44,090 nt of DNA from Deltaproteobacteria bacterium (lineage in GTDB: Bacteria > Desulfobacterota > GWC2-55-46 > DRQE01), in contig JAJRSM010000026.1 in assembly GCA_024278765.1 (NCBI GenBank), forward strand, positions 1 through 44,090, in the 5' to 3' direction. This document shows, piece after piece, positions 22,603 through 23,743 of the stretch; within the stretch, counting starts at the first letter, position 1; the number at the start of each line of letters is the position of its first letter. The translations under genes and the position numbers were made by a program. Under the pieces are notes generated by a model. The model saw only the letters and a list, made by a program, of their open reading frames with translations, was not told the DNA's origin and searched no databases.

Positions 22603-22637
22603 ACACGAGGGTAAGTGCATAGCACTTACCCTCGTGT
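22603..22637. terminator. Bidirectional terminator between cheB and the trypsin-fold gene
   Basis: A perfect 16-bp stem (ACACGAGGGTAAGTGC, loop of 3, then its complement) lies between two converging genes. Read on the minus strand it is directly followed by seven T residues; read on the plus strand by CTTATCTTTTT. It should terminate both the chemotaxis operon and the minus-strand gene. Confidence 0.85.
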
Positions 22638-22683: not shown

Positions 22684-23544
22684 TTAGCCCATTTCAAAGT
22701 CAACCTTTCTTTCCTTTAAGAAAGCCGTGATAACCTCGGTATGAACGGCCCAGCTGACGCTTAGGAACTGAGGAATCTGCATGGTCTCTTTTCCTATCGT
22801 CGTGCTTGCGTTGGTGTCAAGCGGGAGATGATGGGTCTTGCTGTGCATGCCCCATATGCGCCCTTCTGCGTCAAAGACCGGGCATCCGTTCTGCCCTCTG
22901 AGCGCGGGGGTAGAGGTCTCTATAAACTTAATCGGGATCTTGCGATCTTCCTTTGTGCGAAAGACGATATCTCTGGTGTATATGCCGTCCAGCGGACTGG
23001 TAACCAGGTTTTTAAAGTCCAGACTGAAGTTGTTTTTCTTTTCGTCATATTTGGTCGTCAGCTCTGTATAGGAAAAACCAACCTTACAAAGCTGGGTTCC
23101 TGACGGAAGATCTTTAGAAGGATCTTTAAAGACCGGGTAGTTTGTAACGGTGCTTGGGTCAAACGGGTCGAGCCTGCCAAGCAGGAGATCGGCCTCCGGG
23201 ATGACATCGAGATCGACGATCTTTTGACCATCGGTGCCAGGCCATATTGAAGAGGCCGTAATCCAGTTTGGATCGGGTACGAGCTTTTCCAGTTCTTTTT
23301 TGGCCGTCGGTGTATTCATCGACTCAAAGTTTTTTCTGTTGTTGGCCATTGTCTCTTTTTCCTGACGATGCTTTTTTAAGAGAGGTATTACCTCAAATTT
23401 ATGGGTAGCACCGAGGAACCAGCCCTCTTTATTTATGATGATGATGGTGGCACCTTCTGCCGTGATCTCGCCATTTTCCATACGTTTGCATATAATCGTA
23501 GGTTTGATGAAACCCTCTATCTTCTTAATTGCTTCCGAGAACAT
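22684..23544 (-). CDS. Trypsin-fold (chymotrypsin-like) protein with Asn in place of the catalytic Ser
   Basis: The 286-residue protein shows the trypsin-like pattern. EGWFLGATHKFEVI (His48) fits the catalytic His. EADLLLGRLD (Asp119) fits the catalytic Asp. TPALRGQNGCPVFDAEGRIWGMHSKT, read in short pieces, fits the nucleophile loop, where bacterial members normally have G-x-S-G-x-P-V. Here position 219 is Asn (AAC codon), one base from Ser (AGC). There is no signal peptide, so it is probably cytoplasmic. The ATG follows AAGGAGGAG. It is single-gene, between cheB and tadA. It may be an inactive binding protein or act by another route; function unknown. Confidence 0.75.
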   Translation of the reverse strand: MFSEAIKKIEGFIKPTIICKRMENGEITAEGATIIIINKEGWFLGATHKFEVIPLLKKHRQEKETMANNRKNFESMNTPTAKKELEKLVPDPNWITASSIWPGTDGQKIVDLDVIPEADLLLGRLDPFDPSTVTNYPVFKDPSKDLPSGTQLCKVGFSYTELTTKYDEKKNNFSLDFKNLVTSPLDGIYTRDIVFRTKEDRKIPIKFIETSTPALRGQNGCPVFDAEGRIWGMHSKTHHLPLDTNASTTIGKETMQIPQFLSVSWAVHTEVITAFLKERKVDFEMG

Positions 23545-23591
23545 AAGAAAACTCCTCCTTAATGGTCTATAACTTATAGTGGTAAATAGAA

Positions 23592-23620
23592 ACCTTAATA
23601 AATACAGGCGGAAAAGTCAA
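23592..23620 (-). promoter_or_regulatory. Weak candidate promoter of the trypsin-fold gene
   Basis: On the minus strand TTGACT (complement of 23615-23620), a 17-bp spacer and TAAGGT (complement of 23592-23597). The -10 match is poor, so this is tentative. Confidence 0.25.
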
Positions 23621-23713
23621 TTTATTAGTTTTTTTCTCTGTAAAATCAGGTAGTTACAGCTGGCCTTTAGAAGAGCTTGGGGCAGTGTTTTAATTTTTCG
23701 GCAAGATGCTTGC

Positions 23714-23743
23714 TTGACAATTCGTGGCTATAACTGGTACTCT
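23714..23743 (+). promoter_or_regulatory. Candidate promoter of tadA
   Basis: A perfect TTGACA (23714-23719), 18-bp spacer and a weak TACTCT (23738-23743). A start near 23750 would give a short leader to the ATG at 23778, supporting that start over the upstream GTG at 23724. Confidence 0.35.

Follow-up and report, generated by a model that had tools for sequence, protein, structure and literature searches.

The 286-amino-acid protein encoded on the minus strand at 22684..23544 of the window, by which we mean the whole 44,090-nucleotide stretch analysed here, is predicted to adopt the two-barrel HtrA/trypsin (S1-like) fold and carries Asn219 in place of the nucleophilic serine of its homologues. 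The protein is probably a retained pseudoprotease, most likely one that binds without cutting. Indeed, computational comparison with its family shows that the protein of its closest relative, in genome G005, also lacks the serine, that the two sisters share correlated changes at columns otherwise fixed in the family, and that the gene is under purifying selection, all of which supports the pseudoprotease proposed from the sequence in an earlier note. Judged by its sequence, the protein appears to be a pseudoprotease of the MamO-like kind, in which the catalytic residue is lost and the protein is retained under selection.

The gene and its predicted HtrA-type fold

The open reading frame is intact and begins with ATG, just 5' of which lies the ribosome-binding site AAGGAGGAG (23552..23560, minus strand); both the position of the 286-residue frame and the good gene signals described in the earlier note are thereby borne out. 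His48 (codon CAT, 23401..23403, minus strand), at the general-base position, and Asp119 (codon GAT, 23188..23190, minus strand), at the position of the triad Asp, are in place as that note had stated, and each is found in 29/29 homologues. The His-Asp-Ser triad is nevertheless incomplete, with residue 219 being Asn (codon AAC, 22888..22890, minus strand) within a loop that reads GQNGCPV. Downstream of the gene, a terminator scan finds a 16-pair terminator-like hairpin (22603..22637) that separates it from the convergent cheB on the plus strand. The scan places a T-rich tail on the plus side of the hairpin and, by eye, a minus-strand T run also follows, such that the hairpin is apparently usable from both sides. 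A role in chemotaxis was considered and rejected, since cheB is on the opposite strand past this hairpin and the relatives of the gene adjoin other genes.

The fold assignment is based on an AlphaFold2 model from the 29-row family alignment, which has a mean pLDDT of 92.9 and a pTM of 0.87; an earlier model from 7 sequences reached a pLDDT of only 39.8 and was not used for the fold search. The best structural match in the PDB is HtrA1 (6z0x), with a Z of 21.1 over 181 residues at 2.7 A (VIA-align), and all 994 chains aligned to the model have Z of at least 8. Foldseek returns as best matches the protease domains of Deg9, DegS, DegP and HtrA1 (E 2e-9 and up). The model and the HtrA1 match thus agree with the earlier view that the fold is otherwise well kept. 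Family profiles reach HtrA1 at E 1e-7 to 3e-8, and the profile alignments match His48 to the catalytic His of HtrA1 and residue 219 to the Ser of its GNSGGP loop, whereas Asp119 is placed by its conservation in 29/29 homologues and by a Trypsin_2 match starting at residue 112, rather than by explicit structural superposition. In addition, Gly217 is invariant in 29/29 homologues and, by the G-x-S(219) spacing, is the equivalent of position 193. The match of the window protein to Pfam Trypsin_2 (PF13365) is sub-threshold (19.2 bits, for a cut-off of 27.6), as is that of the G005 protein (20.3 bits), whereas the Ser-bearing relative in G001 passes with 40.4 bits; all seven class-level members match Trypsin_2 at E <= 1, the best at 8e-10. 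A phmmer search of the PDB with the window protein gives no match.

The closest solved folds are the protease domains of HtrA1, DegS, DegQ and Deg9 (Foldseek E 2e-9, Z about 20-21), to which the window protein is 12-18% identical. It differs from them by the absence of the Ser, of a signal peptide and of a PDZ domain, none being found by Pfam in this single-domain protein of 286 residues, and by the presence of a two-helix insertion at model residues 52-87. No signal peptide is evident at the N-terminus, nor is a strong hydrophobic segment, as read from the sequence itself. Rather, the AlphaFold2 model already shows domain structure, one helix and one strand, at residues 3-22. Secreted HtrA proteins usually carry a signal peptide, and by that standard its absence is unusual, as the earlier note held. 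Within the family, however, it is the rule: the N-terminus is conserved (MF..A......P) and 29/29 homologues start directly at the domain, so the missing signal peptide is not peculiar to the window gene. The protein is presumably cytosolic.

Counts refer to an alignment of 29 full-length sequences, the window protein included. Matches were obtained in 8 of 63 genomes searched at the class level (7 full length), 15 times in a phylum sample of 395 genomes, in 17/26 genomes of a second class of the phylum (13 with a full-length member) and in 15/148 genomes of a third class (2 full length). Seven IMG/VR contigs, the viral nature of which is putative, encode Ser-bearing relatives that are 27-34% identical to the window protein; one of the IMG/VR searches used a pattern with GQSGGP and is biased to Ser; the two others used no such pattern. 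Left out of the 29 rows are the partial sequences L039 (residues 1-179), L043 (1-54) and L044 (1-42), none of which reach residue 219, the duplicates L003, L004, L011, L012 and L033, and short stretches of other reading frames, most of them far longer, that match weakly (E 1e-4 to 1e-3). We note that L040, L041, L035-L038 and similar loci encode larger HtrA-like proteins that match weakly over a short stretch (E about 1e-4 to 1e-3) and fall outside the family. The reading of the gene as mobile or phage-derived was rejected, as the window protein has no match among 50,697 phage and 72,556 plasmid records, although seven IMG/VR contigs do carry Ser-bearing relatives; two of these, L027 compared with the plasmid records and L028 with the phage records, likewise give no match. 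Among the papers listed for trypsin-like and HtrA pseudoproteases and non-peptidase homologues, we found no description of this protein family.

Loss of the serine and accompanying changes

Column 219 is occupied by Ser in 27 of the 29 sequences (21 AGC, 5 AGT and 1 TCC), by Asn in the window protein and by Thr (ACC) in the G005 protein. With Ser in 27/29 full-length homologues and the His and Asp in 29/29, the Asn reported for the catalytic Ser in the earlier note is confirmed and does not reflect chance. That note had reasoned that the change would be functional if Asn were common among homologues, and that Ser in all close relatives would point instead to a mutation or an error. Asn is not common (Asn 1/29, Thr 1/29), and neither do all close relatives have Ser, as the closest of them, the G005 protein with 64% identity, has Thr. 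Asn is specific to the window genome and Thr to its sister. The two proteins are sisters in the tree with a support of 100/100, and the grouping survives when two rows with long branches are removed along with the eight columns in which the window or G005 deviates; since these columns were picked for that deviation, the G005 tip of almost zero length in that tree carries no weight as evidence. As noted before, a single base separates AAC from a Ser codon; the codon in question, AGC, is present in 4/5 other same-order relatives, as would be expected if one base of the window had been misread or misassembled. Such an error is very unlikely, because G005 has a different non-Ser codon at this position, which is also present in the public record WGEY01000090.1, and because Q234H and F183S are common to both proteins.

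Further changes accompany the loss of the serine. Twenty-four columns are invariant across the 27 Ser-bearing members; of these, the window protein alters 4 (F183S, G214A, S219N and Q234H) and the G005 protein 5 (F183S, R191K, S219T, P222A and Q234H), such that columns 183, 219 and 234 are altered in both. When the Ser-bearing members are left out one at a time, 23/27 alter none of the fixed columns, three alter 1 and one alters 2. Residue 234 (codon 22843..22845, minus strand) is Gln in all 27 Ser-bearing members and His only in the window and G005, and residue 183 (codon 22996..22998, minus strand) is Phe in all 27 and Ser only in these two. Positions 214 and 234 are presumably located at the S1 pocket, as judged by chymotrypsin numbering and simple spacing. 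At a guess, His234, His238 and His239 could form a candidate metal site. These genomes do not lose the serine as a rule, since the other Trypsin_2 proteins of the window genome and related genomes keep Ser in 30/30 loci examined (33 matches, 3 of them without a locus, one of which is the window).

Ancestral reconstruction with a codon model gives, for the common node of the window and G005, Ser at 0.58, Thr at 0.22 and Asn at 0.18, and places Q234H before the split at 0.93. With Ser the likeliest state at this node, the reconstruction does not establish that the serine was lost once, ahead of the split; it may have been lost late and twice, a possibility that makes it less certain that selection acted on the gene once the serine had gone. 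A pocket that changed first, followed by later loss of the serine in each lineage, would, if correct, fit both readings.

Thr can be the nucleophile in other protease classes, and Asn in self-cleaving peptide lyases, which raises the question of whether Asn in the window protein, or Thr in G005, supports a slow or different reaction. The intact His48 and Asp119 and the Gly at the oxyanion position, all invariant in 29/29, would be in keeping with such residual or altered catalysis. We nevertheless consider it improbable, because two different residues occur in two sisters together with the correlated loss of further fixed columns, and because the Thr of MamO proved dispensable and MamO a non-protease (PMC4794232). 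On the pseudoprotease reading, the ancestors of this cytosolic single-domain HtrA-fold protein would have been serine peptidases, and the nucleophile would have been lost in the branch leading to the window genome and G005, with the fold, the His-Asp pair and the oxyanion Gly217 being kept. Peptidase activity would accordingly be expected to be absent from a protein of this sequence. The former substrate groove, with its S1 region altered (Q234H, F183S and G214A), would then hold a protein or peptide partner uncut, and we suggest that this presumed binding role may be that of an adaptor, a decoy or a sensor.

Purifying selection and evolutionary rate

Two genomes carry the non-Ser form, with one genome per genus, and selection was assessed with a branch codon model on seven sequences, in which synonymous sites are saturated, the fitted lengths are rough and some branch lengths are at their bounds. 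In this model omega=1 is rejected when the two tips are taken jointly (2dlnL 227), for the window tip by itself (2dlnL 17.3) and, only modestly, for the G005 tip (6.6). The one-ratio maximum-likelihood omega is about 0.04, and separate ratios for the tips are no better (2dlnL 1.1 to 2.8). The protein distance between the window genome (G000) and G005 is 0.59 for the pseudoprotease, compared with 0.72 for phosphomannomutase, 0.75 for the TPR protein and 1.13 for the TadA-like deaminase. The rejection of omega=1, together with a divergence below that of three neighbouring genes, indicates that the gene is kept; it is under purifying selection, and the constraint may have loosened somewhat in the line of the window genome.

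A gene in early decay, in which the peptidase became dispensable (for example through loss of an upstream partner gene) and the nucleophile is gone while the rest is not yet degraded, would be compatible with several features. The tip of the window pseudoprotease is long (0.54, compared with 0.056 for G005). Each of the four genes has evolved faster in the line of the window genome than in that of G005, the window tip being 2.7 to 3.5 fold longer for the other three, but the pseudoprotease is the most uneven, exceeding the asymmetry of phosphomannomutase, TPR and TadA. The TPR tree groups the window with G005 (97), whereas the phosphomannomutase and TadA-like trees, with weak support, do not. 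Moreover, the metallo-beta-lactamase-fold gene found upstream in several relatives is absent from the window genome, and the few private changes of G005 at conserved columns besides S219T (R191K, P222A and G232A) sit near the active site. We nonetheless regard decay as unlikely: the window tip rejects omega=1 and the two tips combined do so strongly, stops and frameshifts are absent in both genomes, and divergence is not above that of the neighbouring genes. In addition, the Ser-bearing G003 and G004 are also without the upstream gene, yet keep all or nearly all of the fixed columns.

Neighbourhood, upstream hydrolase and precedents

The order of the pseudoprotease, TadA-like deaminase, phosphomannomutase and TPR genes in the window is that of G003 and partly that of G001, and the gene is therefore at an inherited place; this synteny supports orthology, not function. 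Between the pseudoprotease and the divergent deaminase gene is a gap (23545..23723), which in G001 is the site of a metallo-beta-lactamase-fold gene (PF13483, 241-249 residues). This gene is located directly upstream of the protease and on the same strand, at differing genomic places, in G001 (L065:11933-12670), G005 (L063:6089-6811) and G007 (L064:3922-4668). No relic of it is seen in the gap of the window, and the window genome, G003 and G004 contain only distant matches (24-27%), the best of those in the window genome (27%) being elsewhere than upstream of the pseudoprotease. The gene is also found without the protease in G006 and G008. Four of the five full-length copies have the motif HHHVDH, whereas the copy of G005, next to the Thr protease, alone has HHHVEH; the Asp of this motif is a metal ligand in this fold, which Glu would be expected to impair.

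The coincidence of HHHVEH and Thr in G005 is one case and may be due to chance, yet it offers the strongest lead to a partner and suggests a module of two enzymes that may have lost catalysis in concert. A candidate history for the pseudoprotease would thus include a module with the hydrolase encoded just upstream in three relatives. We tentatively propose, as a rather unlikely extension, that a stand-alone metallo-beta-lactamase-fold hydrolase and a cytosolic HtrA-fold protease formed this module and that one clade lost catalysis in both (Ser to Thr and HHHVDH to HHHVEH in G005; Ser to Asn and loss of the hydrolase gene in the window), leaving a selected non-enzymatic binding protein. If true, the family would comprise natural active and inactive forms of one regulator, without an active same-family copy in the genome. 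The Ser-bearing relatives, two of which (G001 and G007) are beside the metallo-beta-lactamase-fold gene, allow the catalytic form of the protein to be readily compared with the non-catalytic one.

Pairs in which a nuclease is encoded upstream of a trypsin-like protease have been published, and in the Hachiman and AVAST systems trypsin-like proteases cut and activate the adjacent nuclease-type protein (PMC12799240). The window protein could by analogy be a defence remnant, in which the ancestor cut and activated the adjacent metallo-beta-lactamase-fold protein and the pair was later switched off, with the protease fold kept for binding. The same-strand gene in G001, G005 and G007 resembles the nuclease-protease pairs of Hachiman, AVAST, Lamassu and DRT as described there (PMC12799240), and the HHHVEH of G005, compared with HHHVDH in 4/4 other full-length copies, would suit such a switch. 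However, the protease is a stand-alone protein of 286 residues with no sensor or defence enzyme fused to it, the upstream proteins are PF13483 members of 241-249 residues and not 42-kDa gated nucleases, and the upstream gene is absent in the window genome and also stands alone in G006 and G008. In PADLOC, the three upstream proteins have no match, and 4/5 proteases tested have only weak ones (E 2e-4 to 0.02), with none for that of G005 and none in the window. A defence remnant is distinctly improbable, and filing the protein under the defence pairs was rejected in view of the missing fused sensor, the smaller upstream protein and the weakness of the PADLOC matches.

For the pseudoprotease, the closest precedent is MamO, an HtrA-like protein with Thr for Ser that was shown to be inactive, activates the protease MamE and binds metal; further independent losses are described in magnetotactic bacteria (PMC4794232). 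Within the literature covered here, few trypsin-fold pseudoproteases of bacteria show evidence of selection, namely MamO and its convergent relatives (PMC4794232). The window protein shares with MamO the HtrA/trypsin fold, the replaced nucleophile, the kept His and Asp and the retained gene. MamO carries a residue other than glycine at position 193 and a TauE transporter domain, and it is partnered by an active protease, MamE (PMC4794232); the window protein, in contrast, keeps Gly217 and is a single domain without a signal peptide. In MamO a His of the metal-binding di-histidine stands just before the triad Asp (PMC4794232), whereas residue 118 of the window protein is Ala. Furthermore, no Ser-bearing member of the same family was found in the window genome; the role of the protein can thus not simply be the regulation of an active same-family sister.

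Other genes lie next to the Ser-bearing relatives. In the second class, the protease gene of L018, L019, L020, L021 and L032 is followed by a TrmO-like gene on the same strand (PF01980 in the one tested). In six of the seven IMG/VR relatives, a reading frame of 61-74 residues starts 1 to 53 bases past the protease stop (L027 after 5897, L028 after 1483, L058:5888-6082, L059:5894-6088, and L060 and L061 after 5900). Two of these small frames have no match in Pfam, and that of L060 resembles that of L061, as does that of L058 that of L059. Their product is a possible candidate for a small partner, substrate or inhibitor of the protease.
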